The position numbers and the translations under genes are program-made. DNA of 64,000 nt from Herbidospora daliensis. GTDB taxonomy: Bacteria; Actinomycetota; Actinomycetes; Streptosporangiales; Streptosporangiaceae. The notes below the pieces were generated by a model, which saw nothing but the letters and a program-made list of their open reading frames with translations, did not search any database and had not been told where the DNA came from. The stretch lies in the NCBI RefSeq assembly GCF_001570585.1, contig NZ_BBXF01000002.1, forward strand, positions 248,001 to 312,000. Direction: 5' to 3'. Below, piece after piece: positions 2,621 to 54,917 of this stretch (the first letter of the stretch is position 1; every line of letters begins with the position of its first letter).

Positions 2621-2624
<4 letters not shown>

Positions 2625-3439
2625 AACTGCAGCTCCGATCGGCGGCGCGGGTTGGCGCGGTCGCGCCAGTGCTGGACGAGCACCGAGATGGCCAACGTGG
2701 GCAGCAGGATGAACAGGCCGGGGAAGAGCGAGGCCCACCAGTTCCCGGCGAGCAGCGACCGCGCCCCGTCGTTGATCATGTTGCCCAGCGAGGCGAGGTG
2801 CGGGGGCAGGCCGAGGCCGAGGAAGCTGAGCGCGGTCTCGTGCCAGATGGCGTGCGGCACCATCAGCACCGACGCCAGCGCGATGTGCGGCAGCAGGTGC
2901 GGCAGGAAGTGCCGCCGCACGACGCGCAGCCGGCTCGACCCGCCGGAGATCGCCGCGTCCACGAACGGCCGGGCGCGCAGCGTGAGCACCTCCGAACGCA
3001 CGATCCGGGCGGCGGTCGTCCAGTGCGTGAGCCCGACCGAGGCGACGACGGCGGTGGCGCTGGGTGAGAACAGCGCCACGATGAAGATGCCGAACAGCAG
3101 GTGCGGCACGGAGTTGAAGCCGTCCACCACCCGCATGATCACCCGGTCGGCCGCGCCGCCGAGCGCCCCGGCCGTGAGCCCGGCCACGGTCCCGACGGTG
3201 ACCGACACCAGGGCCGCCACCAGCCCGATGAGCAGCGAGACGCGCAGCCCGTAGACGACCCGGAGCAGCACGTCGCGCCCCACCTCGTCGGTGCCGAAGG
3301 GATGCGCGAGAGACGGCCCCTGGTTGGCCGCGCGCAGGTCGACGAGCTGCTGGTCGAGCTGCGCCACGAGGGGCACCAGCAGCACGGCCAGCGCCAGCGC
3401 GACGAGCACCCCGGCGGCGATCCGTTCCGACGTCCGCAT
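2621..3439 (-). CDS. nikC: ABC transporter permease, DppC/NikC type
   Basis: A 272-residue inner-membrane permease. A first hydrophobic segment is followed by the family sequence HPFGTDEVGRDVLLRVVYG, then four or five further membrane segments and a binding-protein-dependent transport loop around residues 180-200 that would contact the ATPases. The ATG overlaps the upstream permease stop by one base (TGATG). Heterodimer partner of the upstream NikB-like permease. Family members carry peptides or nickel; nickel is favoured here by the Nur-like box before the first gene and the NicO gene after the last. Confidence 0.86.
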
Positions 3440-4422
3440 CAGCTCACCCCCAGAACCCGCACACGCGGATCGGCGATCACGTAGGCGCTGTCGGCGAGCA
3501 GGTTGCCGAGCACCACGGCGAGCGTGGCCAGCAGGGTGAGCGCGGCGAGCAGCGGGAAGTCGGCGGCCAGCGCGGCCTGCACCGACGCCGACGCCACCCC
3601 CGGCCACGAGAAGACGCTCTCCACCAGGATCGCGCCGGTGACCAGCTCGGGGATGCGCGCCCCGAGCAGCGTGATGAACGGCAACAACGCCGAGCGCAGC
3701 GCGTGCCGCACGATCACCGTGCGCTCCCGCAGACCGCGGGCCCGTGCGCCGAGCACGAAGTCCTCCCGCAGGGTGGCGATCAACGACTCGCGCACGAACA
3801 GCAGCAACCACGACGACTGCGAGAACGCCAGCACGGCCACCGGCAGGATCATGTGCCGCAGCACGTCTCCGGCCTCCAGCGTGGTGGCCGCCGGGTCGGT
3901 CAGCCCGCCCGGCGGCAACCATCTCAGCTGCACGGCGAACACCCAGATCACGATCAGCGCGACCCAGAACACCGGGGCCGCCTCGTTGGCGTAGGCGGTG
4001 CCGGAGATCAGCCGGTCGAGCCACGAGTCGCGCCGCCAGGCGGCCAGCGCGCCGACCGCGAGGCTGACCAGCAGCATGAGCACCAGCGCGCAGCTCACCG
4101 CGAGCAGGGTCCAGCCGATGCGCTCGCCGATCACCTCGGCGACCGGGCGGTGCATGCTGCGCGAGTCGCCGAGGTCGCCCTGTACGAGGTTGCCCAGCCA
4201 GGTCAGATACTGCTCGGCGACCGGCCGGTCGAGGCCCCAGTTCTCCCTGATCTGCGCCACGACCTCGGGGCTCGTGACGACCGCGCGGTCGCCGAGATAC
4301 TGCCTGACGGGGTCGAACGGGGAAGCCTTGGCCAGCGCGAACATGCCCAGGGTCACGGCGAACAACAACGGCACGGTGAACACCAGCCGCCAGACCGCCA
4401 TGCGGGCCAGCGCACGGGTCAT
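3439..4422 (-). CDS. nikB: ABC transporter permease, DppB/NikB type
   Basis: A 327-residue permease with an N-terminal membrane segment, the typical periplasmic region (ENWGLDRPVAEQYLTWLGN), and five more hydrophobic segments. A conserved cytoplasmic loop RARGLRERTVIVRHALRSA matches the ATPase-contact region of the DppB family. Start ATG 4422 overlaps the binding-protein stop as ATGA, so translation is probably coupled. Forms the membrane channel with the next permease. Confidence 0.86.
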   Translation of the reverse strand: MTRALARMAVWRLVFTVPLLFAVTLGMFALAKASPFDPVRQYLGDRAVVTSPEVVAQIRENWGLDRPVAEQYLTWLGNLVQGDLGDSRSMHRPVAEVIGERIGWTLLAVSCALVLMLLVSLAVGALAAWRRDSWLDRLISGTAYANEAAPVFWVALIVIWVFAVQLRWLPPGGLTDPAATTLEAGDVLRHMILPVAVLAFSQSSWLLLFVRESLIATLREDFVLGARARGLRERTVIVRHALRSALLPFITLLGARIPELVTGAILVESVFSWPGVASASVQAALAADFPLLAALTLLATLAVVLGNLLADSAYVIADPRVRVLGVS

Positions 4423-5969
4423 GCCGCCGGCTTCCACTCGGCGAGGTTCCGGAACAGGCCGCCGGTCTCGTGCTCGTGCGCCTCGACCGACGGCGTGATG
4501 CCGGTCCACTTGCCGCGCACCACGTAGACGTGCTTGAGGTACACCAGGTACGCCCAGGCGGCGTCCTCACTGACCCGCTGCTGGAAGTCGTCGTACGCCT
4601 GCTTGCGCACGGCCGGGTCGGACTCCTCGCGGCCCTTCTCCAGGAGCGCGTCGACCTCGGGGGACTTGTAGTTGCCCGGGTTGAAGAAGCCCTGGCCGGC
4701 GTAGGACGAGTGGAACAGCTCGTAGTTGGTGTAGTCGGGGTCGAACGGCGTGCCGTAGCCCATGACCAGGGCGTCCTTGGCCATACGCGGCTCGATCGCG
4801 TCCCAGTCGAGGCCGGCCAGCTGGACGTCGACGCCGACCTTCTTGACGTCGGAGGCGACGGCCAGGGCGAGGTCCTTGCGCAGCGAGTCGCCCGCCGGAT
4901 ACATGAGGGTGAAGCTCGCGCGGGTGCCGTCCTTGGCCCGGACGCCGTCGTCGCCGACGCGCCAGCCCGCCTCGTCGAGCAGCTTGCCGGCCGCCGCCTG
5001 GTCGGGGGTGGCCGACCCGTCGATCGCGGGGTTGTGCCAGGTGGTGCCGGGCGCGACGGGCCCGAACGCGGGTTCGCCCGCTCCAGCCAGGATGGTGTCC
5101 ACCATCGCCGAGCGGTCGAGCGCCAGGTTGACCGCCTTGCGGATCGCGGCGTCGCCGGTGACCGGGGTGCCGAACGGGAACATCACGCCCCGGTAGTCGG
5201 CGCTCGGCACCCGGTGCACGGTCAGATCGGGCTGGCCGTCGAACCGCGCGGCGGCCTTCGGCGGCAACACGGTCGCGTCGAACTCCCCGGCCGCCATCCG
5301 GGTGGCGCGCACGTTGTCGTCGGTGGCGTAGGCCATCACCAGCTGCTTGATCGCCGGTGCGCCGCCCCAGTACGCGGCGTTGGCCTTGAGCACGATCTTG
5401 TCGCCGGGCGTCCACGACACGAAGCTGAACGGCCCGGTGCCGATCGGCTGGGTGTCGGAGGCCCGGCCGGCCGGCACGATGCCCAGCGTGGCGCGCTGGA
5501 GGAACGGCGCGTAGGGGTACTTGAGGCGGAACACCACCGTCGTGGGGTCGGGCGCCTCCACCGACTCGATCGCCGCGAAGTCGCCGCGGATGCCGGAGTT
5601 GTTCTTCTCGTCGAGCACCGACTCATAGGTGTAGACGACGTCCTCGCTGGTCAGCGGGGTGCCGTCGTGGAACTTGACGTCCTTGCGCAGAGTGAAGGTG
5701 ACCGTCGTGCCGTCGGTCTCGGGCAGTTTGTCGGCCAGCGCGGGCGTGAGCGTGAGGTCGGCGTTCCGGCTGACCAGCCCGTCGAACATCAACGAGCCGC
5801 CGGCGGAGCCGTAGCCCATGACGGGGTTGAGGGTCTCCGGCTCCGAGCTCATCCCGACGACGAACGTGTCGTCGGGCGAGCCGGGGGCCGTCGTCGGCGC
5901 GGCGCAGGCGGTGAGAGCGAGTGCGGCAATCAGGACGAGAGGTGCGAATCTGGCGCGAAAGGGCGTCAT
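4419..5969 (-). CDS. nikA: ABC transporter substrate-binding lipoprotein, nickel/peptide type
   Basis: A 516-residue extracytoplasmic solute-binding protein (SBP_bac_5 family). A lipoprotein signal peptide ends in a lipobox (LTACAAP), so it should be anchored to the outer face of the membrane. The family start of the mature protein (GMSSEPETLNP) and later GTGPFSFVSWTPGDKI are clear. It captures substrate for the two permeases encoded downstream. The family covers dipeptides, oligopeptides and nickel chelates and the ligand cannot be read from sequence. A Nur-like site 32 bases upstream argues for nickel. There is no strong Shine-Dalgarno before the ATG, so the leader may be short. Confidence 0.83.
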   Translation of the reverse strand: MTPFRARFAPLVLIAALALTACAAPTTAPGSPDDTFVVGMSSEPETLNPVMGYGSAGGSLMFDGLVSRNADLTLTPALADKLPETDGTTVTFTLRKDVKFHDGTPLTSEDVVYTYESVLDEKNNSGIRGDFAAIESVEAPDPTTVVFRLKYPYAPFLQRATLGIVPAGRASDTQPIGTGPFSFVSWTPGDKIVLKANAAYWGGAPAIKQLVMAYATDDNVRATRMAAGEFDATVLPPKAAARFDGQPDLTVHRVPSADYRGVMFPFGTPVTGDAAIRKAVNLALDRSAMVDTILAGAGEPAFGPVAPGTTWHNPAIDGSATPDQAAAGKLLDEAGWRVGDDGVRAKDGTRASFTLMYPAGDSLRKDLALAVASDVKKVGVDVQLAGLDWDAIEPRMAKDALVMGYGTPFDPDYTNYELFHSSYAGQGFFNPGNYKSPEVDALLEKGREESDPAVRKQAYDDFQQRVSEDAAWAYLVYLKHVYVVRGKWTGITPSVEAHEHETGGLFRNLAEWKPAA

Positions 5970-6040: not shown

Positions 6041-7960
6041 TCAGCGAACGCGCCGCCCCGTCTCCGCGCAGGAGTAGCCCCCCAGCGCCTCGACCTCGGC
6101 GCGGAAGGCGGGCCGGTCGAGCAGCTCCCACAACGGGGCGAGCAGGTCGTCGGTCAGCGCGCCGGTACGCATCACCAGGTCGTAGGGCTCCTGGGCCACC
6201 GGCACGAAGTCAAGCCCGAAGGCGCGGGCGGCGGCGAGGATGCCCAGACCGGCGTCGGCGCGTCCGGCCGCGACGGCGGCGGCCACGGCCAGGTGGGTGT
6301 GCTCCTCGCGGGCGTAACCGGGCACCTCGGCCGGGTCGATGCCGAGGCGGGCGAGTTCGTGGTCGAGCAGCGCCCGCGTGCCCGCGCCGCGCTGCCGGTT
6401 GACGTAGCGCAGGCCGGGCCGGGTCAGGTCTTTGACGCCGTCGAGATCGAGCGGGTTGCCGGGCGCGACGATCAGCCCCTGGTCGCGGTGGACCAGCCGG
6501 ACCACCGCGACGTCGGCGCCCGCCCCCAGCAGCCGGTCGACGTAGGGCAGCGTGTAGTCGCCGGTGACCGGGTCGAGCAGGTGTGACCCGGCGATGTGGC
6601 ACAGGCCGTCGCGCAGCGCCACCAGGCCGCCGAGCGAGCCGACGTTCGACGACGCCAGGGTGATCAGCGGGTCGGCCGCGCGCAGCGCCGAGGCGGCCAG
6701 GTCGAGCACCAGGTCGTGGGAGCCGATCGCGACGATGGTGCGGCCGATCTCCGACAGGCCGCGCAGCAGTTCGACCCGCACCTGCTCCCCGGCGTGGTGG
6801 CCCTCGACGCCCGAGGGCACGACGAGCAGCCCGTCGGCCCTGACCAGCGAGGTGAGCACGCCCGCGCCCCGGGGCAGCGGGGTGGCGACGAGCCGGTCGT
6901 CGACCCGGCCCAGGCGCACCCTGACCCAGTCGTCCATGCCGATCGCCGAGGGCAGCTTCCTGGCCAGGTGGGCCGTGGTCGACGGGCGTTCGCGCGGCGC
7001 GGCGCCTTCGAGCTCGGCCAGCAGCGGGGCGGCGAAGATGTCGAACGTCAGGGCCGCGGAAACGGGGTAGCCGGGCACCCCGATCACGGGCGTCTCCCCG
7101 GCCGCGCCCAGCACGACCGGATGGCCGGGCCGCACCGCGACCCCGTGGACGGCGACGACCCCCGCCCCGGCGACCACGCGGGCGGTGTAGTCGTCGCGCC
7201 CGGCGCTGGAGCCCGCGATGAGCAGCACCAGATCGGCCTCGCGGGCGGCCTCCAGCAACACGGCGGTGATGGCCGCGGGGTCGTCGGGCACGATGCCGGT
7301 GACCCGCGCCTCGCAGCCCGCCTCCCGGGCCTGCGCGGCGAGCATCATCGAGTTGGTGTCGAGGATGTCGCCCGGAGCCAACTCCGCGCCGATCGGGCGG
7401 ATCTCGTCGCCGGTCGGCACGATCACCACCCGCGGCGCGCGGCGTACGAGGAGATCGACGGCCCCGGCCGCCGCGGACGCGGCGACGTCGACCGGGCGCA
7501 GCCGATGGCCCTCGGGGAGCAGCAGCTCACCCGCGCTGATGTCCTCGCCGATCGACCTGACGTGCTGGTAGGGCGGCACGGCCGCCCGCACCTCCGCCTC
7601 TCCGGCAGGGGTGCGGTGGACGTGCTCGCGCATCACCACGGCGTCGTATCCGTCGGGCAGCGGGTCGCCGGTGTCGACGACCGCGAAGTCACCGGCGGCG
7701 AGGAGGACCGGGACGGTCTCGGACGCCCCGACGGTGTCGGCCGCGCGGACCGCGATGCCGTCCATGGCCGAGGAGTCGAACGCGGGCGAGGAGCGCAGCG
7801 CCCACACCGGCTCGGCCGTCACCCGGCCCACGGCCGCGCCGACCGGCACCCGGACCACGCCGACCCGGGCGGGACAACCCGCCGCCGCACGGGCCTCACG
7901 CCAGACGGACAGGGCCTGGGCCGAAGGGACGTCGGAGACGAAGGGACTTTCCGCGCTCAT
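6041..7960 (-). CDS. Molybdopterin molybdotransferase MoeA fused to a PBP-like domain
   Basis: A 639-residue two-part protein. Residues 1 to about 410 are MoeA-like: SSAMDGIAVRA near residue 65, GDEI and GASSAGRDD-like (GSSAGRDDYT) in the MoCF/MogA-like fold, and GVPGYPVSA. MoeA inserts molybdate (or tungstate) into adenylylated molybdopterin. The last 200 residues resemble the PBP-like domain (PF12727) seen fused to MoeA or ModE, with GSHDLVLDLAAS at its start and ARGDAGLG-like (AGRADAGLGI) near the end, a possible oxyanion or metabolite sensor. Last gene of the cofactor/formate dehydrogenase run; ATG overlaps the preceding MoeA stop by 4 nt. Confidence 0.87.
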   Translation of the reverse strand: MSAESPFVSDVPSAQALSVWREARAAAGCPARVGVVRVPVGAAVGRVTAEPVWALRSSPAFDSSAMDGIAVRAADTVGASETVPVLLAAGDFAVVDTGDPLPDGYDAVVMREHVHRTPAGEAEVRAAVPPYQHVRSIGEDISAGELLLPEGHRLRPVDVAASAAAGAVDLLVRRAPRVVIVPTGDEIRPIGAELAPGDILDTNSMMLAAQAREAGCEARVTGIVPDDPAAITAVLLEAAREADLVLLIAGSSAGRDDYTARVVAGAGVVAVHGVAVRPGHPVVLGAAGETPVIGVPGYPVSAALTFDIFAAPLLAELEGAAPRERPSTTAHLARKLPSAIGMDDWVRVRLGRVDDRLVATPLPRGAGVLTSLVRADGLLVVPSGVEGHHAGEQVRVELLRGLSEIGRTIVAIGSHDLVLDLAASALRAADPLITLASSNVGSLGGLVALRDGLCHIAGSHLLDPVTGDYTLPYVDRLLGAGADVAVVRLVHRDQGLIVAPGNPLDLDGVKDLTRPGLRYVNRQRGAGTRALLDHELARLGIDPAEVPGYAREEHTHLAVAAAVAAGRADAGLGILAAARAFGLDFVPVAQEPYDLVMRTGALTDDLLAPLWELLDRPAFRAEVEALGGYSCAETGRRVR

Positions 7961-9177
7961 CCGTACAGGACTACCTCTACCTCGGTGCCCGCGCCGAGGC
8001 CGGTGGCCGGCTCGGGCACGATCACGTATCCGTCGGCACGAGTCAACACCGACAGCAGCGCCGACGGGCCGAAGATCGGCTCCGCCACGCCGTCGCGGAC
8101 CGCCACCTGGACCACGTCGAGCCGCCCGGCCGCCGACGCCAGGTCACGCGACAACCGCGCCCGGGTGCCGGGCCTCGGCGGCGGGGTCTCGCACCCGCCG
8201 ACGCGCCACACCAATGGCACGCCGACCTGCCCGAACACCACCAGCGCCGACAGCGGGTTGCCGGGCAGCCCGATGACCGGGACCCCGCCGCACTCGGCCA
8301 GCAGGGTGGGCTTGCCGGGCTTGATGGCGATGCCGTGGCACCAGACGTCGCCGAGGGCGGCCACCGCGCCGGCGGTCTCGTCGCGCGCCCCGACCGACGA
8401 CCCCGCCGACACGACCACCAGGTCGGCGGCCGGCAGCAGCTCGGACAACCGGTCTTTCAGCGCGCCCGGCTCGTCGGGCACGATCCCGGCGATCACCGGC
8501 TCGCCGCCCGCCTCGGCGACCAGCCCGGCCAGCGCCGAGGCGGTGGCGTCGCGCACCTGCCCGGCGGTGAGCGCCTCGGTCTCGGGCGGCACCACCTCGT
8601 CGCCGGTGGAGACGATCGCCACCCGGGGCCGCCGGTGCACGGCGACCGTCGTCACCCCGGCGGCGGCGAGGAAGCCCAGGTCGGGAGCGCGCAGCGGCCG
8701 CCCGGCGGGCACCAGCACCCCACCCGCCGCCACGTCGTCGTCGGCCCGCACGACGCCGCCGCCGGGCGCGACGGGCCGGGTGACCTCGATCGTGCCGGGC
8801 ATGGTCTCGGCGGTGTACTCGACCATGACCACGGCGTCGGCGCCCTCGGGGAGCACGCCCCCGGTCGGCATCGCGACGCACCCGCCCGGCCGCACCGCGA
8901 CCGTGGGCGCGGCGCCCATCTGGACCGCGCCGACCAGGTCGAGGTAGGACGGCAGCCCGTCGGACGCGCCGTAGGTGTCGGCCGCCCGGACCGCGAAGCC
9001 GTCGACGGTCGAGCGGGCGAAGCCGGGCAGCGCGGCGGGCGTGGTGACCTCGGCGGCGGGCACCCGGTGCAGCGCCTCGGCCAGCGGCACCCGCTCCACC
9101 TGCGTACGGCGCGCGGGCCGGAAACCGGCCCGCACCTCGGCGAGCGTGCGGGCGGTGAAGAACTCCTTGCCGCTCAT
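7957..9177 (-). CDS. moeA: Molybdopterin molybdotransferase MoeA
   Basis: A 406-residue single MoeA. Typical sequences are FARSTVDGFAVRA, the MoCF-fold GDEVV and SAGSSVGARDET, and the late GLPGNPLSALVVF with a C-terminal domain IV of beta strands. It would transfer the metal into the pterin for the formate dehydrogenase and aldehyde oxidoreductase encoded upstream. It starts at ATG 9177, overlapping the NuoEF-like stop as ATGA. A second MoeA with an extra domain follows directly, so the locus holds two copies. Confidence 0.9.
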   Translation of the reverse strand: MSGKEFFTARTLAEVRAGFRPARRTQVERVPLAEALHRVPAAEVTTPAALPGFARSTVDGFAVRAADTYGASDGLPSYLDLVGAVQMGAAPTVAVRPGGCVAMPTGGVLPEGADAVVMVEYTAETMPGTIEVTRPVAPGGGVVRADDDVAAGGVLVPAGRPLRAPDLGFLAAAGVTTVAVHRRPRVAIVSTGDEVVPPETEALTAGQVRDATASALAGLVAEAGGEPVIAGIVPDEPGALKDRLSELLPAADLVVVSAGSSVGARDETAGAVAALGDVWCHGIAIKPGKPTLLAECGGVPVIGLPGNPLSALVVFGQVGVPLVWRVGGCETPPPRPGTRARLSRDLASAAGRLDVVQVAVRDGVAEPIFGPSALLSVLTRADGYVIVPEPATGLGAGTEVEVVLYG

Positions 9178-10913
9178 CGGTCGGGCTGCTCCGCCGACCC
9201 CTCGGGCCGGGGCTGCGGACGGGCCGCCGCGCCGCCCTTGTCGAGCCCGAGCACCGACACGACCGGCCCGAGCGCCACCTGGCCGAGCCCGCAGATCGAC
9301 GTCTTGCGCATGGTCTCCTCCAGCTGGAGGATCCGGCCCCGCTGCGTGTCGTCGAGGGTCGACGACCCGGTGTCGAGGGCGCCGCGCAGCAGGTCGTGGG
9401 CCTTGGTCGAGCCGACCCGGCACGGCACGCACTTGCCGCACGACTCGTTGCGGAAGAACCGCAGCACGTTGGTCGAGGCGGCCAGCAGGTCGGTGCCCTC
9501 GGCCAGCACCACCATCGCGCCGGAGCCGAGCATGGTGCCCGCCTCGGCGAGGGTGCCGAAGTCGAGGGCCAGGTCGAGCTTGTCGGGCCCGATGAAGTTG
9601 GACGACGCCCCGCCCGGCTGCACCGCCCCCACCTCGGCCCCATCGAGCACGCCGCCCGCGAGGTCGATCAGCGCGCGCACGGTGGTGCCCATGGGCACGC
9701 AGTAGACGCCGGGGTTCTCGACGTGGCCCGAGACGGCGAAGAACTTCCAGCCGACCGACTCGCCCGCGCCCTGCGCGGCCCACCAATCGGCGCCGCGCCG
9801 CAGGATCACCGGCACGTCGGCGAAGGTCTCGACCGAGTTGATCAGGGTGGGCCGGCCGTGGAGGCCGTAGTTGCCGGGGAAGGGCGGCTTGTTGCGCGGC
9901 TCGCCTCGGTGGCCCTCCATACATTCGAGCAGCGCGGTCTCCTCGCCGAGGATGTAGCCCCCGGGCGAGACGAAGATGTCGAGGTCGAGGCGGCGGCCGC
10001 TGCCGCACGCGTTCTCGCCGAGGACGCCCGCCGCGCGCAGGGCCTCGATCTCGGCGTGCAGCACCCGCTCTTCCGGCCCGTATTCGTGCCGGATGAAGAT
10101 CCAGCCCTGCTCGGCCCCGACCACGGCCATGCCGAGCAGCAGGCCCTCGATCACCAGGTGGGGCTGGTCGGTCAAGATCTGGCGGTCTTTGAAAGTGCCC
10201 GGCTCCGACTCGTCGGCGTTGCAGATGACGTATTTGACGCCGCCCGGCTCGGCCGCGCGCACCAGCCCCCACTTGCGGCCGGTGGGGAAGCCCGCGCCGC
10301 CCATGCCACGCAGCCCCGACGCCTCCAGCGTCGCCACCACGCCCTCGGCGCTCAGTTCGCCCGACAGCAGGGCGCGCAGGCTGGCGTAACGCCCGGAGAC
10401 GCCGGAACCGGCCGGGTAGGGGTCGTTGGGCCAGGGCTCGGCGCGGCCCGTCACGGCGGCCTCGCCGAGCGAGGAGTCGCGGGCGGCCGACACGAGCGCG
10501 TCGACGTCGGCGACCGGGGCCGGGACCTCGTTGACGGCCAGCGCCGGGGCGCTGTCGCAGCGGCCCAGGCAGGAGACCTCGGTGAGCTCGATCTCGGTGT
10601 CGTCGCCGTAGCGGGCCTTCACCTCGGCGATCCGGTCGTCGGCCGACCGCAACCAGCACGACAGGTCGTGGCAGACGTTGACGGCCACCTTGGCGGGCGG
10701 GGTGGTGCGGAAGTGGGGATAGAACGAGATCAGGCCCTCGATCTCGTAGAGCGGGCGGCGCATGGTGCGGCCCAGCTCCTCGAGCTCCTCGCGCGGCAGC
10801 CAGCCGAGCCGGGCCTGGATGGCGTTGAGCGCCGGGATCAGCGACGGGCCGGGGAACTTCCCGGCCCGCGCCTCGACGCCGGGCACCCGGGAACCCTGGA
10901 AACTGAGTGTCAT
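9174..10913 (-). CDS. NAD-reducing diaphorase, fused NuoE-NuoF-type subunit of formate dehydrogenase
   Basis: A 579-residue protein in which a NuoE/HoxE-like thioredoxin-fold ferredoxin (about residues 20-140) is joined to a NuoF/HoxF-like flavoprotein (about 175-565). A [2Fe-2S] site is offered by C81, C86, C115 and C119. The flavoprotein has the NADH/FMN glycine-rich segment GLRGMGGAGFPTGRKW and GGYILGEETALLE, then a [4Fe-4S] motif ESCGKCVPCR with a later Cys in TSICGLG. Similar FdsB-type subunits pass electrons from formate oxidation to NAD in the cytoplasm. It overlaps the formate dehydrogenase stop by 4 nt, which fits a stoichiometric complex. Confidence 0.9.
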   Translation of the reverse strand: MTLSFQGSRVPGVEARAGKFPGPSLIPALNAIQARLGWLPREELEELGRTMRRPLYEIEGLISFYPHFRTTPPAKVAVNVCHDLSCWLRSADDRIAEVKARYGDDTEIELTEVSCLGRCDSAPALAVNEVPAPVADVDALVSAARDSSLGEAAVTGRAEPWPNDPYPAGSGVSGRYASLRALLSGELSAEGVVATLEASGLRGMGGAGFPTGRKWGLVRAAEPGGVKYVICNADESEPGTFKDRQILTDQPHLVIEGLLLGMAVVGAEQGWIFIRHEYGPEERVLHAEIEALRAAGVLGENACGSGRRLDLDIFVSPGGYILGEETALLECMEGHRGEPRNKPPFPGNYGLHGRPTLINSVETFADVPVILRRGADWWAAQGAGESVGWKFFAVSGHVENPGVYCVPMGTTVRALIDLAGGVLDGAEVGAVQPGGASSNFIGPDKLDLALDFGTLAEAGTMLGSGAMVVLAEGTDLLAASTNVLRFFRNESCGKCVPCRVGSTKAHDLLRGALDTGSSTLDDTQRGRILQLEETMRKTSICGLGQVALGPVVSVLGLDKGGAAARPQPRPEGSAEQPDR

Positions 10914-13798
10914 TTCGCAGCCTCGACCTGGATCGCGCAGAACTTGAACTCGGGGATCTTTCCGTGGGGGTCGATCTCGTCGATCGTCAGCAGGTTGGCC
11001 GCCGCCTCACGGAAGTGGAACGGGATGAAGCAGTTGCCGAGCTGCTCGCGGTGGGAGATGCGCACCTGCAGCTCGATGACGCCGCGACGCGACCTGACGC
11101 GGGCCATCTGGCCGTGGGCCAGCCCCCGGTCGGCGGCGTCCTTCGGGTGCATGTAGACCTCGGCGATCGGCGAGATCGAGTCGAGCGCGAACGACCGCCG
11201 GGTCATCGACCCGGTGTGCCAGTGTTCGAGCAGCCGGCCGGTGTTGAGCACCAGCGGATAGTCGGCGTCGGGCAGCTCCTTGGCCGGGAGCCACTGCGCC
11301 GGCACCAGGTGGGCGAGGCCGTCGTCGGTGTTGAAGCGCTCGTCGAACAGGACCACGGTCCCGTCGGAGTGCTCGGGGTCGGCGTTGGGGTAGAGCTTCC
11401 CGGTCAGCCCCAGGTTGTCGTGGCGCAGGTTCCGGTAGGACGGCATCAGCGCCACCATCTCGTCGAACACCTCGCTGGGCGAGGAGTAGGACCAGTCGAG
11501 GCCGATGCGCCGGGCGATGTCCTGGACGATCTCCCAGTCGACGCGGGCCTGCCCCGGCGGGTCCATCACCTTGCGGCCGAGCTGCACCCGCCGGTCGGTG
11601 TTGGTGTAGCTGCCGTCTTTCTCCAGGTAGGACGACGCGGGCAGGATGACGTCGGCGAACTCGGCCGTCTCGGTCATGAAGATGTCCTGGACGACCAGGA
11701 ACTCCAGCTGCGAGAGCGCCTTGCGCACCTTGTTGATGTTGGGGTCGGACAGGAACGGGTTCTCGCCCAGCATGTACATCCCGCGCACGCCGCCCGGCTT
11801 CAGCACCGACCCGATGATCTCGGTGACGGTCAGGCCCCGGTTGGGGTCGAGCTCGGCGCCCCAGGCCTCCTCGAACCGCCGGCGGGTGGCCTCGCGGTCG
11901 ACCCCCTGGTAGTCGGGATAGAACATCGGGATCAGCCCGGCGTCGGAGGCGCCCTGGACGTTGTTCTGCCCGCGCAGCGGGTGGAGCCCGGTGCCGGGAC
12001 GGCCGACGTTGCCGGTGATCGAGCACATCGCGATCAGGCAGCGGGCGTTGTCGGTGCCGGTGGTGTGCTGGGAGATGCCCATGCCCCAGTAGATGACCCC
12101 GGCCTTGGCCTCGCCCCACACGCGGGCGACCTGGCGGATCAGGTCGGCGTCGACGCCGGTGATCTGCGCGCCGCGCTCCGGCGGGTAGTCGTTGACGGTG
12201 CGGACCAGCTCTTCGAAGTTCGACACCCGGGCCTTGATGAACTCGAGGTCGATCAGGCCGAGCCTGATCACCTCGTGCATGACCGAGTTGTAGAACGCCA
12301 CGTCGGTGCCGGGCTTGACCTGGCAGTGGAAGTCGGCGTGCTCCGACACCGTGCTGGCGCGCGGGTCGACGTAGATGATCTTCGTGCCGCGGCGGCGGGC
12401 CTGCTTGAAGAAGGAGCTGGCGACGGGGTGGTTGGCCGTCGGGTTCGAGCCCGTGATGATCACGACGTCGGCGTTGGCGACGTCGCCGTAGGTGGTCGAG
12501 ACCGCGCCGGAGCCGACGCCCTCGAACAGCGCGGCCACCGACGAGGCGTGGCAGAGCCGGGTGCAGTGGTCGATGTTGTTGGTGCCGAAGCCCGCCCTGA
12601 TCAGCTTCTGGAAGAGGTAGGCCTCCTCGTTGGAGCACTTCGCGGAGCCGAACCCGGCGATCGCGCCGGCGCCCTGCTCGCGGTGGATCTCGGTGAGCCG
12701 CCGGGCGACGAGGTCGAGCGCCTCCTCCCAGGTGGCCTCGCGGAAGTGCGGCAGCACCTCGTCGTAGTCGACCAGGCCGCCGGGCTTGCGCCGGCCGTCT
12801 TTGCCGTTCTTGCTCAGCTTCCCGCCGCGCCGCCCGCGCTCCCGCTCGCCGTCGCCGCGTACGTCGGCCGACAGCGGGCCCTTGGGGTAGGACGACTCGA
12901 TGCGGATCAGGGGGGTGGTCAGGCGCTGGGGCGAGGCCGCGTAGTCCCAGCCGTAGCGGCCCTTCACGCACAGGCGGCCCTTCGAGCCGGGCTGGTCGCG
13001 GCCCTCGGCGAAGGCGATCGCGCCGCGCGACCGGTCGACGTAGTAGGTGAGCGCGCACCCGACGCCGCAGTAGGGGCAGACGCTGTCGACCGCGTCGAGC
13101 TCCTCGCGCGGCCGGATCGGCACGTCGTTGATCGGCTTGTTGGTCAGCGCGCCCGTGGGACACGCCTGCACGCACTCGCCGCAGGTCACGCACGAGCTGG
13201 CGCCCATCGGGTCGTTGAGGTCGAACGCGATCTTCGTCGAGTAGCCCTTGCCCGACCGGCCGATGACGTCGTTGCCCTGGACGTCGTCGCACGCCCGCAC
13301 GCAGCGGTCGCAGAGGATGCACGCGTCGTGGTCGACGGCGATCACCGGGTTGGACAGGTCGAGGCCCCGGCCCGAGCCGCACGGCAGGTCGGTGGTCTCC
13401 TTGGCGACGTCGAACCGGTCGGCGAGGCCGAGGAGCAGGTTGTCGCCGGTCGTGGTCTGCTTCGGGTCTTCGGCGCGCGGCGGCTGGTCGGAGATCAGCA
13501 GCTCGGTCAGCACGGCCCGGCTGCGCTCCAGCTCGGGGGTGGTGGTCTTGACCTGCATGCCGTCGTCGCACGGACGCACGCAGGCGGCGGCGAAGGCCCG
13601 CCCGCCGGTGTCGACCACGCACATGCGGCACACCCCGACGGGGTCGAAACGCTCGTCGTGGCACAACACCGGGATGTCGATGTCGAGTCGCTTGGCGGCG
13701 TCGTAGATGGTGGTGCCCTCGGGCACGGTCACGGCGCGGCCGTCGATTTCGACGGACACCGTCCGTACGGACGTCGCCGGCTCCTCGAGAATCGTCAT
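10910..13798 (-). CDS. Formate dehydrogenase, catalytic alpha subunit (Mo/W-bis-PGD, FdsA type)
   Basis: A 962-residue enzyme expected to oxidise formate to CO2. An N-terminal [2Fe-2S] domain uses C46, C57, C60 and C73, and two ferredoxin-like [4Fe-4S] sites use C160/163/166/170 and C203/206/209/213. The molybdopterin domain opens with its own [4Fe-4S] motif (C241, C244, C248, C277). The active-site pair is C416-H417 in DHCTRLCHASS, so this is a cysteine, not a selenocysteine, enzyme. Residues 306-342 form a very charged Arg/Lys/Gly-rich insertion not usual in the family. ATG start; the next gene is the NAD-linked subunit, overlapped by 4 nt. Confidence 0.92.
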   Translation of the reverse strand: MTILEEPATSVRTVSVEIDGRAVTVPEGTTIYDAAKRLDIDIPVLCHDERFDPVGVCRMCVVDTGGRAFAAACVRPCDDGMQVKTTTPELERSRAVLTELLISDQPPRAEDPKQTTTGDNLLLGLADRFDVAKETTDLPCGSGRGLDLSNPVIAVDHDACILCDRCVRACDDVQGNDVIGRSGKGYSTKIAFDLNDPMGASSCVTCGECVQACPTGALTNKPINDVPIRPREELDAVDSVCPYCGVGCALTYYVDRSRGAIAFAEGRDQPGSKGRLCVKGRYGWDYAASPQRLTTPLIRIESSYPKGPLSADVRGDGERERGRRGGKLSKNGKDGRRKPGGLVDYDEVLPHFREATWEEALDLVARRLTEIHREQGAGAIAGFGSAKCSNEEAYLFQKLIRAGFGTNNIDHCTRLCHASSVAALFEGVGSGAVSTTYGDVANADVVIITGSNPTANHPVASSFFKQARRRGTKIIYVDPRASTVSEHADFHCQVKPGTDVAFYNSVMHEVIRLGLIDLEFIKARVSNFEELVRTVNDYPPERGAQITGVDADLIRQVARVWGEAKAGVIYWGMGISQHTTGTDNARCLIAMCSITGNVGRPGTGLHPLRGQNNVQGASDAGLIPMFYPDYQGVDREATRRRFEEAWGAELDPNRGLTVTEIIGSVLKPGGVRGMYMLGENPFLSDPNINKVRKALSQLEFLVVQDIFMTETAEFADVILPASSYLEKDGSYTNTDRRVQLGRKVMDPPGQARVDWEIVQDIARRIGLDWSYSSPSEVFDEMVALMPSYRNLRHDNLGLTGKLYPNADPEHSDGTVVLFDERFNTDDGLAHLVPAQWLPAKELPDADYPLVLNTGRLLEHWHTGSMTRRSFALDSISPIAEVYMHPKDAADRGLAHGQMARVRSRRGVIELQVRISHREQLGNCFIPFHFREAAANLLTIDEIDPHGKIPEFKFCAIQVEAAK

Positions 13799-13833
13799 CT
13801 CAACCTCACGCGTGGAGCGATTGATGGAATACA

Positions 13834-13846
13834 GTATACGACATAC
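13834..13846 (-). promoter_or_regulatory. Possible operator/promoter before formate dehydrogenase
   Basis: Between the oxidoreductase stop and the formate dehydrogenase ATG there are 55 AT-rich bases. On the minus strand they contain GTATGTCGTATAC, an inverted repeat GTAT-N5-ATAC, running into a good -10 hexamer TATACT. An overlapping operator and promoter is a reasonable reading; similar TATAC-rich inverted repeats are bound by GntR-family regulators. No regulator gene of that kind lies nearby. Confidence 0.4.
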
Positions 13847-13853
13847 GACTACG

Positions 13854-15653
13854 CTATAAGTCGAGCAGCAGGTCGGAACTGCCGCTCACGACCCGTCCCT
13901 CCCGGTCGAAGCCGCGCGCGGCGTAGTAAGTGTCGATCATCGACCGCAGGCGGTCGGCGTCCAGGGTGGCCTGACGGCCCGAGCCGAGCTGGAGGGGCGT
14001 CTCCAGCATCCGGGCGGGCAGTGTGTCGTCGGCCGCGGTGGCCCCTTCTCGCAGGTTGAAGGCGCGTTTCGCCACGACGATGCGCCGCGCGGTCTCCCGC
14101 AGTTCGGCGGCGTCGACCGGCCAGCCGGTGACCAGCGCCAGCAGCTTGGCCCACTCGGTGAAGGGCTCCTCGAAGACGCCGCGCAGGAACTTGCACAGGA
14201 TCATCGAGTCCATGATCGCCGCGCGGTCTTCGGTCTCGACCGCCGCGGCGACGTGGGCGGCGCCGCCCGCCAGCCGGTCGAGCTCGCCCGACAGGTCGGC
14301 CTCGTAGGCGCCCGACCGGTTGTGGTCGGCGCCCCTGGCGTTCACCGCGAGCCCGAGCGCCATCGCCTGCAGGCTGCGCGGCTCGTAGCCGGGCAGCTCC
14401 AGGCCCTTGACCTGGGGCGCGAAGTCGATCGAACCGTGCCCGACCACGGCGGCGGCCCGCCGCGAGCCCTGCGCGAGCAGCTCGCCGAGGCCGGGCGACC
14501 GCGCCCCGATCGCGTCGAGCGCGCGCAGCAGCGCCGCGCCGTCGCCGAACCGCAACCACGGCTCGTCGAGCAGGCCGCGTTCGACGCACTCCATGGCCCA
14601 GGCGATGGTGCCGCCCGCCGAGATGGTGTCGACGCCCAGCTCGTCGCAGCGGGCGCTGGCGGCGAACACCTCGTCGGGGTCGGACACGCCGCACAGCGGG
14701 CCGAGCGCGAAGACGTTCTCGTACTCCATCCGCTGGCTGCCGCCGCCCTTGCGCGAGTAGATGTGCTCGCAGCCGATGGAGCACGACGCGCAGCTGTTGC
14801 GGGCCACCCCGCGCAGTTCGTGCAGCTCCTCGGCGGCCAGCCGGGGCGCGCCCTCGAAGGTCGCCGCGGTGAAGTTGCGGGTGGGCAGGGTGCTGACGGC
14901 GTTGAAGGCCAGCAGGTTGGCCAGCGTGCCGAGCTCGCGGTACTTCGCCGTGGCCGGGCCGAAGCTGCGCCGCCGCAGGTCGCGGGCGGCGGCCAGGACG
15001 CCCGGCTGGTCGGCGACGGCCACCTTGGTCGCGGCTCTGACCAGCACGGCCTTGATGTTCTTGGCGCCCATCGTCGCGCCCAGGCCGCCCCGTCCGGCGT
15101 GCCGGCCGTCGTGGCTGATGGTCGAGTACCGCACCAGGCGCTCCCCCGCCGGGCCGATGGCCGCAGTACGCCAGTTGCGGCCGAAGCGGGCCCGCGCGGC
15201 GGTCTCGGCCTCGGCGGCGGTCAGCCCGGCGAGCTCGGGCGCGGGTTCGAGCCGCACGCCGTCGCCGTCGATCAGCAGCACCGAGAGCTCGTCGGCCCGC
15301 CCCCGGATCACCAGCGCGTCGTGCCCGGTCAGCTTGCCCGCGATGGCGAACTGGCTGGACGCCAGGGCGTCGGTCAGCAGCCCGGTCAGCGGCGACTTGG
15401 CCACCACGGCGAACTTGGCGCTGGTCGTCAGCGGGGTGCCGACCAGCGAGGAGAAGACGAAGGCCAGCGGGGCCTCGGGCGCGAGGGGGTCGACCCCGGC
15501 GGGGGCCAGCCGGTGGAGCAACCAGGTGCCGAGCCCGACCCCGCCCAGGTAGGCGCGCAGCACCCGCTCGTCGAGCTCGTAGGGCGCGCCGACGGCGGCG
15601 CGGCCGTCGACGTCCACGATCAGGGCCCGTCCGAAGAATCCACCAGGCGTCAT
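13854..15653 (-). CDS. Aldehyde ferredoxin oxidoreductase family (tungsten-type) enzyme
   Basis: A 599-residue member of the AOR family, enzymes that hold a tungsten or molybdenum bis-pterin centre and oxidise aldehydes or related substrates using ferredoxin. The N-terminal domain starts with the family pattern GGFFGRALIVDV and YLGGVGLGTWLL. The [4Fe-4S] ligands are C288, C291, C295 and the distant C487 (LCKF). Pterin-binding regions are suggested by RGGLGATMGAKNIKA near 188-201 and by RGADHNR near 440-446. ATG 15653 has GGAGG nine bases upstream; GTG 15662 would overlap the previous stop but has no room for a ribosome site. AOR-family enzymes are uncommon in aerobic actinomycetes. Confidence 0.88.
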   Translation of the reverse strand: MTPGGFFGRALIVDVDGRAAVGAPYELDERVLRAYLGGVGLGTWLLHRLAPAGVDPLAPEAPLAFVFSSLVGTPLTTSAKFAVVAKSPLTGLLTDALASSQFAIAGKLTGHDALVIRGRADELSVLLIDGDGVRLEPAPELAGLTAAEAETAARARFGRNWRTAAIGPAGERLVRYSTISHDGRHAGRGGLGATMGAKNIKAVLVRAATKVAVADQPGVLAAARDLRRRSFGPATAKYRELGTLANLLAFNAVSTLPTRNFTAATFEGAPRLAAEELHELRGVARNSCASCSIGCEHIYSRKGGGSQRMEYENVFALGPLCGVSDPDEVFAASARCDELGVDTISAGGTIAWAMECVERGLLDEPWLRFGDGAALLRALDAIGARSPGLGELLAQGSRRAAAVVGHGSIDFAPQVKGLELPGYEPRSLQAMALGLAVNARGADHNRSGAYEADLSGELDRLAGGAAHVAAAVETEDRAAIMDSMILCKFLRGVFEEPFTEWAKLLALVTGWPVDAAELRETARRIVVAKRAFNLREGATAADDTLPARMLETPLQLGSGRQATLDADRLRSMIDTYYAARGFDREGRVVSGSSDLLLDL

Positions 15654-15658
15654 CGCGC

Positions 15659-16504
15659 TCACCCTCCGGCGTCCGCGGACAGGAAGGCGACGGTGTCGCC
15701 CGCCACCAGGGGCAGCCGTTCGTCGCGGGTCACCTGGTCGCCGTTGAGCGCGGCCACGATGTGGCGGTCGAGGGTGAGCCCGGCCGCGCTCGCGGCGGCT
15801 CCCAGGGTCGCGGCCCGGACGGCGCGCGGCCGGTGGCCGCCGTTGCGCGCCAGCGCGCCGAAGCACTCCACCGTGATCTCGGGCTCCGGCCGCTCGCGGG
15901 CCGCCGTGTAGTCGTCGGGGGAGTTGACGTTCACCACCGAATCGAGCGCCGGGTCGCGGCGCGCCAGCTCGGCGTCGGCCAGCAGCGCCGCGTCGTCGAG
16001 CTGGACGACCTCGCAGTGCTTGAAGAGCATCCCGGGCCGCAGGTCGCCCTCGGCGAGCAGATCCCTGACCAGCCCGGCCAGGGTGGTGCGGTATCCGGCG
16101 GCCAGCGGCTGCCGGAACCCCCGCGCCACCGGGAGCGCGACGTCGGTTCCCTCAGGCAGGGCCCGCAACACGCGGCGGACGAAGGCGGGGTGCAGGAACG
16201 GCATGTCGGTGGAGCACACGAAGGCCGTCTCGGCCCGGTCGGCCACCGCCGCGAGCCCCACGGCCAGCCCCTGCATGGGCCCGAGGCCCTCGACGGGATC
16301 TTCGACGACGGTGACGGCCGGGGGCAGCGGCGGCAACTCCTGCCCGGGAGCGGCCACCACGACGACCGGTCCGTCGACCGTCCGGGCGAGCACGGCGGCG
16401 GCCCGGTAGAGCAGGGTCGAGCCGTGCCACTCCAGCCAGGCTTTGGGCTGTCCCATTCGGGTGGAACGTCCGCCCGCAAGCACAATGCCCGCAGTTGTCC
16501 CCAT
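15659..16504 (-). CDS. MobA-type nucleotidyltransferase fused to a MoaD/ThiS-like sulfur carrier
   Basis: A 281-residue fusion. Residues 1-195 are MobA-like, with the guanylyl-transfer signature LAGGRSTRMGQPKA and CSTDMPFL; MobA makes the guanine dinucleotide form of the pterin cofactor. From about residue 203 a ubiquitin-like fold begins (ITVECFGALARNG) and the protein ends with ALNGDQVTRD, LPLVAGDTVAFLSADAGG. The terminal Gly-Gly is the activation site of MoaD/ThiS sulfur carriers. MoaD-like proteins linked to AOR genes are known, but this joining is unusual. ATG 16504; no strong ribosome site. It lies 14 bases after a DUF1048 gene and its stop is just before the AOR start. Confidence 0.85.
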   Translation of the reverse strand: MGTTAGIVLAGGRSTRMGQPKAWLEWHGSTLLYRAAAVLARTVDGPVVVVAAPGQELPPLPPAVTVVEDPVEGLGPMQGLAVGLAAVADRAETAFVCSTDMPFLHPAFVRRVLRALPEGTDVALPVARGFRQPLAAGYRTTLAGLVRDLLAEGDLRPGMLFKHCEVVQLDDAALLADAELARRDPALDSVVNVNSPDDYTAARERPEPEITVECFGALARNGGHRPRAVRAATLGAAASAAGLTLDRHIVAALNGDQVTRDERLPLVAGDTVAFLSADAGG

Positions 16505-16518
16505 GTCCGAATGTTAGG

Positions 16519-17118
16519 TCACGCGGAGGCGGGCGGGTCCTCGATGAGATCGTCGCAGAAGGCCGCCACGTCGGTTCCGACGAGCTCCCGCACCCCTTTG
16601 CCGTCGGCCGCGCCCTCCTCGAAGAAGTCGAGCACGCCGGCGAGCAGCTCGGCCGACCCGACCTTGAAGAGGTAGCGCTCCATCTCCCGGTAGACGATCC
16701 GGTAGTCGGGCGGCAGGGCCTTGATCCGCGCGAGGTACGCCCGCCACTGCCGCTTGCCTTCGATGGCGTCCCGGAAGCGCAGTTTCCTGGCCACTTTCCT
16801 GTTCAGCCGCGCCCGCCACCGGTCGCGGAAGCTCCGGGCCCCCTGGCCGTCGGCCAGCGCCGCGCAGAAGCCGGGGACGTCGTCGCCCAGCACCTCCCGG
16901 ATGGTCCGCCCGTCGGCCGCGGTCTCTTCGAGCAGCCCCAGCGCGCCGTCGAGGATCGGCATCAGGTTCCGGCCGGTGAAGTCTCCGTAGGGGAAGAGAC
17001 CGTTCTGGATCTGCGCCCAGGCCGCCCGGAAGTCGGGCGGCAGCTTCTCGGCGCGGGCCTCGAACGCCTTCCAGTCACGGGTCATGTCGTTGCCCGTCAT
17101 GGTGTCCCAGAGGTTCAT
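16519..17118 (-). CDS. DUF1048 protein with tandem duplication
   Basis: A 199-residue cytoplasmic protein. Two related halves can be aligned: DWKAFEARAEKLPPDFRAAW...GDDVPGFCAALADG (about 14-92) and QWRAYLARIKALPPDYRIVY...GTDVAAFCDDLIED (about 124-194). Each matches one DUF1048 unit, normally a protein of about 110 residues on its own, so this is an internal duplication or fusion. DUF1048 genes usually follow a PadR regulator, as here, where the ATG overlaps the PadR stop by 4 nt. Molecular function is unknown. Confidence 0.8.
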   Translation of the reverse strand: MNLWDTMTGNDMTRDWKAFEARAEKLPPDFRAAWAQIQNGLFPYGDFTGRNLMPILDGALGLLEETAADGRTIREVLGDDVPGFCAALADGQGARSFRDRWRARLNRKVARKLRFRDAIEGKRQWRAYLARIKALPPDYRIVYREMERYLFKVGSAELLAGVLDFFEEGAADGKGVRELVGTDVAAFCDDLIEDPPASA

Positions 17119-17441
17119 CTCCCGCCTTCCCTGAGCTTCTCGATGCGCTCGGTGACGTACTCCCATTTCGCCCAGAAGGTCGCGAGCTCCCGGCGGCCGG
17201 CTTCGTTGAGGGCGTAGAACTTGCGGGGCGGGCCCTTGCCCGACGGCCGTTTCGCCACCTGGACCAGCCCGTTCTTCTCCAGCCGCAGCAGGATGGTGTA
17301 GACCGTGCCCTCGACGACGTCGGCGAAGCCGAGGTCGTTCAGGCGGCGCGTGATGGCGTAGCCGTAGGTCTCCTCGGTGCCGATGATCTCCAGCACGCAC
17401 CCTTCGAGCGTGCCCTTCATCATCTCCGTCAGGTCGTCCAT
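17115..17441 (-). CDS. PadR-family transcriptional regulator
   Basis: A 108-residue regulator with the PadR winged helix: MKGTLEGCVLEIIGTEETYGYAITRRLNDLGF, then GTVYTILLRLEKNGLV and a basic wing (RPSGKGPPRKFYALNEAG). The C-terminal helix for dimerisation is short. It has a good ribosome site (GGAGGTGCG before ATG). PadR proteins with a DUF1048 partner usually repress their own operon, and an inverted repeat GTACTC-N9-GAGTAC lies just upstream. Confidence 0.88.
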   Translation of the reverse strand: MDDLTEMMKGTLEGCVLEIIGTEETYGYAITRRLNDLGFADVVEGTVYTILLRLEKNGLVQVAKRPSGKGPPRKFYALNEAGRRELATFWAKWEYVTERIEKLREGGR

Positions 17442-38050: not shown

Positions 38051-38124
38051 AGCCGCCTTGGGGAATCGAACCCCAGACCTACGCATTACGAGTGCGTCGC
38101 TCTGGCCGACTGAGCTAAGGCGGC
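38051..38124 (-). tRNA. tRNA-Thr (anticodon CGT)
   Basis: A full cloverleaf on the minus strand: acceptor GCCGCCT / AGGCGGC, D-arm with AGCTCAGTCGGCCAGAGC, anticodon stem ACGCA / TGCGT with loop CTCGTAA (anticodon CGT, reads ACG), and T-arm with GGTTCGATTCC. 74 bases including the discriminator; CCA is not encoded. Confidence 0.93.
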
Positions 38125-54831: not shown

Positions 54832-54917
54832 GTCCGGGTGGCGGAATAGGCAGACGCGCTAGCTTGAGGTGCTAGTGCCCAGTGATGGGCATGGGGGTTC
54901 AAGTCCCCCCTCGGACA
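54832..54917 (+). tRNA. tRNA-Leu (anticodon GAG), integration site of the AICE
   Basis: 86 bases. Acceptor GTCCGGG / CTCGGAC, anticodon loop TTGAGGT (GAG, reads CTC/CTT), long variable arm TGCCCAGTGATGGGCA, T-arm with GGGGGTTCAAGTCCCCC. The CCA is not encoded. The 3' part is shared with the recombinase gene on the other strand, so this tRNA holds the left attachment site of the integrated element. Confidence 0.93.
54859..54917. other. Probable attachment site (attL) region in tRNA-Leu
   Basis: The 3' half of tRNA-Leu is also the 3' end of the recombinase gene. In AICEs the core is a direct repeat of the tRNA 3' end. The second copy (attR) should lie beyond position 64000. The exact core cannot be defined here. 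Confidence 0.55.

Follow-up and report, generated by a model that had tools for sequence, protein, structure and literature searches.

The window analysed here is a 64,000-nucleotide (nt) stretch of the Herbidospora daliensis genome (contig NZ_BBXF01000002.1, positions 248,001 to 312,000), and our subject is a run of six minus-strand genes at 6041..16504 that encode, in order, a MobA-ThiS fusion, an aldehyde oxidoreductase (AOR), the alpha subunit of a formate dehydrogenase (FDH), a fused NuoE-NuoF protein (NuoEF), a MoeA and a second MoeA with a C-terminal PBP_like domain (MoeA-PBP) (Table 1). A preliminary description made from the letters alone had named an AOR-family enzyme, a cysteine-type FDH, a NuoEF-like diaphorase and three cofactor-assembly genes, and all six were recovered in place by their domains. 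The same description had the genes nearly all overlapping by 4 nt, which is the case at three of the five junctions (FDH/NuoEF, NuoEF/MoeA and MoeA/MoeA-PBP, all ATGA overlaps); mobA-thiS and the AOR gene are separated by 5 nt and the AOR and FDH genes by 55 nt.

Table 1. Features of the six-gene segment, in order of transcription (positions in the window).
Feature	Position	Strand	Length and domains
MobA-like nucleotidyltransferase with C-terminal ThiS/MoaD-like domain, Gly-Gly end	15659..16504	-	281 aa; NTP_transf_3
AOR (WorL-type aldehyde oxidoreductase)	13854..15653	-	599 aa; AFOR_N + AFOR_C
Direct-repeat element GTATgtcGTATactGTAT, candidate operator or promoter element	13829..13846	-	in the 55-nt AOR/FDH gap
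FDH alpha, NuoG-like N-terminus, cysteine type	10910..13798	-	962 aa; TIGR01591
Fused NuoE-NuoF diaphorase, FDH beta	9174..10913	-	579 aa; Complex1_51K, 2Fe-2S_thioredx, NADH_4Fe-4S
MoeA, pocket motif KPGK	7957..9177	-	406 aa; MoeA_N, MoCF_biosynth, MoeA_C
MoeA with C-terminal PBP_like domain, pocket motif RPGH	6041..7960	-	639 aa; NF011068

The FDH alpha subunit matches TIGR01591 with 766 bits (cut-off 666) and carries TRLCHASS, which we take to be the cysteine-type active-site motif. Its best solved relative is the tungsten FDH alpha subunit of Methylorubrum (7vw6, 993 bits), the next enzyme scoring 585 bits, and the best solved relative of NuoEF is the tungsten FDH beta subunit 7e5z_B, by a narrow margin (346 bits, next 341). 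The start of AOR was taken as 15653, a 670-residue open reading frame (ORF) being an upstream extension of it. AOR matches AFOR_N (190.3 bits, cut-off 29.8) and AFOR_C (340.1 bits, cut-off 27), and its best solved relatives are the AOR of Pyrococcus furiosus (PfAOR; 1aor, 300 bits) and 9mqx_D (284 bits). Residues T243, E312, Y423 and H444 align with PfAOR Thr243, Glu313, Tyr427 and His448, and these four are invariant, together with the presumably cluster-binding cysteines C288, C291, C295 and C487, in nine AOR sequences comprising the window AOR and eight others that are 72 to 95% identical to it. The Thr, Glu, Tyr, His list of second-shell residues is given for aldehyde-oxidising members in section 5 of PMC13328260.

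Among the three maturation proteins, MobA-ThiS matches Pfam NTP_transf_3 (116.8 bits, cut-off 27). With the ThiS model its tail scores 18.2 bits within the whole protein and 21.3 bits alone, below the cut-off of 22.5, and of two relatives' MobA-ThiS proteins one scores 22.0 bits and the other is unmatched. The C-terminal Gly-Gly is present in 76 of 76 relatives. The AlphaFold model of MobA-ThiS (mean predicted local distance difference test score 91.6) has MobA structures as its best PDB matches, and no sulfur-carrier structure is among the best 50 PDB matches listed for the whole model; on our reading, the strands and helices modelled at residues 209-276 would form a beta-grasp domain. MoeA-PBP matches NF011068 with 695 bits (cut-off 534) and PBP_like with 236.7 bits, and the domains of the first MoeA were scanned within a longer ORF at 7957-10659. 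The pocket motif reads KPGKP in 55 of 61 relatives of the plain MoeA and RPGHP in 51 of 57 relatives of MoeA-PBP.

To place the segment among its relatives, named genomes were scanned for AOR with two peptide patterns, a scan that covers close relatives, and the best 80 of 145 loci were kept (L numbers below). Judging by their names, we take all 80 to be actinobacterial. Carriers include Herbidospora, Nonomuraea, Acrocarpospora, Microtetraspora, Kibdelosporangium, Actinophytocola, Amycolatopsis, Pseudonocardia, Saccharopolyspora, Geodermatophilus, Kribbella, Haloechinothrix, Murinocardiopsis, Nocardioides, one Streptomyces and many metagenome-assembled genomes (MAGs), with Herbidospora galbida closest among those named (AOR 95%). 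Among loci whose flanks extend at least 1 kb ahead of AOR and 8.3 kb beyond it, and with inserted genes ignored, the same six-gene order was found in 54 of 58, two of these (L090 and L092) with FDH in fragments. Therefore the set is not a chance assembly, and the preliminary proposal of a self-contained cofactor and enzyme module stands. The paired genes in this count are more than 500 nt apart three times for AOR/FDH, four times for FDH/NuoEF and nine times for MoeA/MoeA-PBP. The four loci that depart from the order are L101 and L107 (MobA-ThiS and AOR only), L064 (without FDH and NuoEF) and L056 (without MoeA-PBP in the flank). FDH follows within 3 kb downstream of AOR in 68 of 75 loci, the others being L050, L055 (with 1.4 kb of sequence after AOR), L064, L086, L101, L107 and L108.

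A few of these loci show departures of their own. In L090 and L092, FDH alpha and NuoEF appear fragmented between intact neighbours, through decay or sequence errors, and in L050, L056, L064 and L070 a gene for an ABC exporter-like protein (about 630-650 residues) is inserted inside the cassette. In L105, another FDH/NuoEF-like set, a distant one at 32-40% identity, immediately precedes the cassette (L105:4266-8928, minus strand).

An order-level survey of 345 genomes detected an AOR ortholog (E<=1e-100) in 32 of them, in agreement with the earlier remark that AOR enzymes are rare in aerobic actinomycetes, and an FDH ortholog (E<=1e-200) in 31. All 31 FDH genomes are within the 32 AOR carriers and have the two genes on a single contig; the remaining carrier (G746, AOR without FDH) is a 67%-complete assembly with AOR at a contig edge. 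AOR, FDH and TupA are all missing from three of the seven genomes listed for the window's genus. At the phylum level, AOR-family hits (E<=1e-30) were found in 73 of 396 genomes, mostly distant, and the six genomes with more than 70% AOR identity are the six with FDH in a sample of 392 (the two samples differ by four genomes). The 32 carriers of the order comprise 20 close ones (AOR identity of 90% or more) and 12 divergent ones (71-77%).

In a search of the 345 genomes with the window genome's own TupA-like protein, a gene for a TupA-like tungstate-binding protein was found in 22 of the 32 carriers, including 20 of the 20 close ones, and in none of the 313 non-carriers. In the window's genome, TupA-like, TupB-like and, downstream, ABC ATPase genes are on the same contig as the cassette, 1.2 Mb from it; a ModA that passes its cut-off and one FdhD are encoded at other places in the genome. 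TupA is the only NCBIfam family matched by the TupA-like protein; for the TupA proteins of four relatives, NCBIfam TupA is the best model, all scores being below its cut-off. TupA is within 10 kb of AOR in 8 of 22 genomes of the order survey and in the flank of 19 of the 80 named loci, eight of them of the divergent group. Judging by its pocket motif, the second MoeA departs from the molybdenum type, and in another way than the MoeA of the Methylorubrum extorquens enzyme MeFDH1. According to excerpts of PMC11733289, in 86% of cases bacterial MoeA-PBP is accompanied by TupA, and tungsten insertion has been proposed for it; excerpts of PMC13197769 report that the tungsten cofactor of MeFDH1, an enzyme of an aerobe, is the product of a dedicated MoeA with the pocket motif KPGR.

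Because the FDH is closest among solved structures to a tungsten FDH, MoeA-PBP is present and the TupA-like gene occurs only in carriers among the 345 genomes, the evidence favours a tungsten system, in line with the tungsten-type AOR of the preliminary description. We consider it likely that the segment is a tungsten cassette serving two separate enzymes, AOR and an NAD-linked FDH, and infer tungsten in both. Tungstate would enter through the TupABC-like importer, which adjoins the cassette in some relatives, and would be inserted into the pterin by MoeA-PBP, probably together with MoeA, while the MobA-ThiS fusion would supply sulfur-carrier and nucleotidyl-transfer functions. AOR would then convert aldehydes to acids, probably with ferredoxin as acceptor, and FDH alpha with NuoEF would convert formate to CO2 and NADH, or run in reverse.

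Several points weigh against this reading. The TupA-like and TupB-like proteins of the window's genome score 220 bits (cut-off 400) and 178 bits (cut-off 320), below the curated cut-offs of NCBIfam. The TupA-like gene is present in only 2 of the 12 divergent carriers, and 10 of the 32 carriers, all with divergent AOR and six of them less than 90% complete, lack TupA at E<=1e-25. Eleven of the 22 TupA matches contain an in-frame stop within the matched stretch, probably because the query begins upstream of the true start codon. Since the carriers in the order survey all belong to one family, the co-occurrence counts are not independent events, and the tiny values of a Fisher test of co-occurrence are not to be taken literally. 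The six genes do not include mobB, the genome beyond the cassette not having been searched for it. Finally, the pocket of the first MoeA is of the molybdenum type (KPGK), so that molybdenum in one of the two enzymes is possible. That both enzymes use molybdenum and the genes are a routine molybdenum-cofactor operon is, in our view, highly improbable. The canonical pocket of the first MoeA, the presence elsewhere in the genome of a ModA over its cut-off, and one AOR-family molybdenum enzyme reported in excerpts of PMC6365974 would fit such an operon, but the restriction of TupA to carriers among the 345 genomes, the presence of MoeA-PBP and a tungsten FDH as closest solved relative do not.

The relationship between the two enzymes can be read from genomes in which they lie apart. 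Pseudonocardia nigra has AOR on a contig without FDH and two FDH-NuoEF pairs (FDH 86 and 83% identity) on other contigs, and no AOR, MobA-ThiS or MoeA is present in the 14 and 15 kb around these pairs (L155 and L156). An FDH ortholog was searched for in 11 genomes: two orthologs were found in the L050 genome and pieces in those of L064, L090, L092 and L104. The assemblies of L086, L101, L107 and L108, which are MAGs and possibly incomplete, have AOR and no FDH ortholog, and the L101 and L108 genomes contain distant FDH-like proteins (33-34%). The L088 and L094 genomes likewise have no FDH ortholog and were not counted as FDH-less since their contigs end at AOR. A loss of FDH in Pseudonocardia MH-G8 (L064) was considered and rejected; FDH end pieces, beside NuoEF of 72-78% identity, sit at contig ends there, an assembly break is most likely, and the locus was taken out of the FDH-less set. 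From the P. nigra pairs and the four FDH-less AOR assemblies, we conclude that a neighbouring FDH is not a requirement for AOR.

Since AOR and FDH separate, a single obligatory AOR-FDH complex was dropped as the main explanation. The earlier suggestion that aldehyde electrons reach NAD via FDH/NuoEF found no support, given AOR without FDH nearby and FDH-NuoEF sitting elsewhere; a joint electron path to NAD is possible. The corresponding model, in which AOR docks on FDH/NuoEF to make one NAD-reducing complex fed by aldehyde and formate, or in reverse lets formate reduce acids, draws on the conserved adjacency and near-perfect co-occurrence of AOR and FDH and on solved entry 9mqx, which holds both an AOR (9mqx_D) and a NuoF-like subunit (9mqx_B). 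The FDH also has an insertion of ~30 residues relative to MeFDH1, with conserved ends, that could be a docking site. However, the insertion is kept in unlinked FDH copies (shortened in one), a WorS-type polyferredoxin is not among the six genes, and 25 of 68 relatives have a separate element ahead of FDH. Together with the AOR assemblies lacking an FDH ortholog and the FDH-NuoEF pairs without AOR nearby, these observations make the complex distinctly unlikely. The NuoEF encoded here has only plain NuoE and NuoF domains; in the bifurcating type there are additional iron-sulfur domains.

A cassette serving two separate enzymes needs no joint electron path for AOR and FDH to stay together, and the simplest reason for their linkage is that they share the metal and the maturation genes. 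The two enzymes might also act in consecutive steps without a complex, AOR oxidising formaldehyde to formate and FDH formate to CO2 with formation of NADH. This reading is compatible with the tungsten cassette and merely names the substrate. The product of one enzyme would be the substrate of the other, and AOR has formaldehyde ferredoxin oxidoreductase (1b25, 255 bits) as one of its closest solved relatives, although it is nearer to PfAOR. An NAD(P) transhydrogenase beta family protein (403.6 bits, cut-off 689) is encoded upstream of mobA-thiS in L089, and similar genes are present in L091, L093 and L099; on the other hand, no other one-carbon gene was seen among the few flank genes scanned, and some assemblies have AOR without FDH. 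We judge consecutive steps to be unlikely.

Near the cassette of L078 (L078:15-800, plus strand) is a gene for an MFS transporter that resembles lactate or oxalate/formate transporters, with scores below cut-offs. Similar genes are present in L084, L101, L107 and L108; three of these five loci are FDH-less. In the FDH-less L101, an AIR-synthase-like gene (AIRS domain; L101:11767-12759, plus strand) overlaps the end of AOR by 4 nt.

In all 75 loci that have 1 kb of flank, AOR is preceded by MobA-ThiS, at a median distance of 24 nt; preceded here means within 1.8 kb upstream, and 2 of 76 such pairs (L064 and L088) are more than 500 nt apart. MobA-ThiS and AOR thus form the tightest pair and FDH and NuoEF another, and the cassette joins both. 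MobA-ThiS remains next to AOR in loci that lack FDH. The known AOR structures contain a bare bis-pterin. The position of PfAOR Asn93 was considered as a sign of a different cofactor and dropped, the magnesium contact there coming from the main chain according to excerpts of PMC12096430.

The 55-nt gap between AOR and FDH contains the direct repeat GTATgtcGTATactGTAT, which has no other match in the window at <=1 mismatch (0.01 expected by shuffle control). Of the 68 relatives that have FDH close by, 25 show GTAT-N3-GTAT in this gap and 43 do not. Over the 80 loci (1.41 Mb, no shuffle control) there are 53 hits, 44 in the AOR/FDH gap and 9 elsewhere; in L106 a hit lies 64 nt after MoeA-PBP. The gap repeat may be a promoter or operator element of FDH, which may thus have its own promoter. 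In the window's genome the TupA-like importer genes are divergent from the gene of a regulator (L152:3386-4333, minus strand) with a GntR-like helix-turn-helix fused to a PBP domain that resembles that of MoeA-PBP. GntR-PBP fusions are also encoded in L020-L023, beside tupA or beside the cassette, and such a regulator flanks 19 of the 80 named loci. The GntR-PBP protein is a candidate tungstate-sensing regulator. The GTAT element occurs upstream of tupA or its regulator in the window's genome (L152, one copy), L081, L093 and L097, and is absent from the Nonomuraea tupA/regulator promoters among those listed. Because of the latter, binding of the element by GntR-PBP, and with it a link to tungstate sensing, amounts to no more than a lead. 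It is very unlikely, in our estimate, that the bolder combination holds, with MobA-ThiS acting as a bifunctional sulfur carrier and nucleotidyltransferase dedicated to AOR, as its constant place beside AOR might suggest, AOR carrying a nucleotide-bearing tungsten pterin and the whole set forming a tungsten-sensing regulon under GntR-PBP control.

Other signals around the segment are few. No molybdenum-cofactor riboswitch was detected at the gathering threshold in the window or L152, and the promoter scan returned no sigma-70 site. One terminator-like site is present at 6055-6042, just past the last gene (2.4 expected by chance). Genes for a PadR-type regulator and a DUF1048 protein (16519-17441, minus strand) stop 14 nt short of mobA-thiS and might share a transcript with the cassette; H. 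galbida (L017) has a 108-residue ORF, the same length as the PadR gene, at a comparable place. Directly downstream of MoeA-PBP are ABC importer genes (SBP_bac_5, BPD_transp_1; 2621-5969, minus strand), whose binding protein scores best with nickel-binding models, below cut-off. The sole Rfam matches at the gathering threshold in the window are tRNA genes at 38051-38124 (minus strand) and 54832-54917 (plus strand).

Tungsten use has long been tied to anaerobes. If our reading is true, the locus offers an aerobic system in which simple gene deletions could be used to test the need for tungsten, tungstate sensing and molybdenum/tungsten discrimination. Soil actinomycetes would have a conserved cassette that brings together an importer, regulators resembling sensors, maturation genes and two enzymes. 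Tungsten-dependent conversion of aldehydes and formate would join the known chemistry of these organisms, and a further NAD-linked FDH would become available for work on CO2. The parts are known separately. The preliminary description had asked whether the set is widespread and already described as a unit; it recurs across actinobacteria, and no published description of the six-gene unit or of the MobA-ThiS fusion was found in open-licence papers, supplements aside. Excerpts of PMC12096430, PMC7325909 and PMC6147048 do not mention the unit, and in the main text of PMC13328260 'formate dehydrogenase' appears once, in the title of a reference.

Among known systems, MeFDH1 is similar in the NuoG-like N-terminus of its alpha subunit, its fused NuoEF-type beta subunit and its cysteine active site, as well as in its aerobic host, more than one MoeA and a Tup importer, TupABC-like in the present case (PMC13197769, in excerpt). 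Its maturation genes, moeA1-mobB-tupBCA, are not matched by the set found here, in which AOR and MobA-ThiS precede FDH, and where its MoeA1 has KPGR, the present locus has a KPGK MoeA and a PBP-fused MoeA with RPGH. The order of domains in the latter, MoeA followed by PBP_like, is that of the archaeal MoeA1 type. The AOR resembles Class I WOR enzymes such as P. furiosus AOR and Brevibacillus WOR (PMC13328260 and PMC9424855, in excerpt) in its single large subunit, its catalytic residues, the ThiS-like domain beside AOR and the absence of WorS from the six genes. There is also an aerobic precedent in this class, the Brevibacillus enzyme being, by the excerpted account of PMC9424855, the first tungstoenzyme from a strictly aerobic microorganism. 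Some Class I WOR genes have a ThiS-like WorX nearby, whereas here the ThiS-like domain is fused to MobA and AOR is linked to an NAD-type FDH. A MoaD-like gene adjoins AOR in the neighbourhoods described by Iyer et al. 2006 (PMC1779556) and in Aromatoleum aorABCDE (PMC6365974), where aorD and aorE are MoaD-like. The passages of these two sources describe separate MoaD genes or MoaD-AOR fusions and no FDH link, those of PMC1779556 do not mention MobA, and the Aromatoleum AOR has iron-sulfur and FAD subunits that are absent here. The bifurcating Class IV WOR (WorLSABC; section 11 of PMC13328260, in excerpt; 9mqx) shares the combination of AOR with a NuoF-like subunit, but in the cassette described here WorS is not among the six genes, NuoEF is the beta subunit of the FDH and AOR is separable from it.

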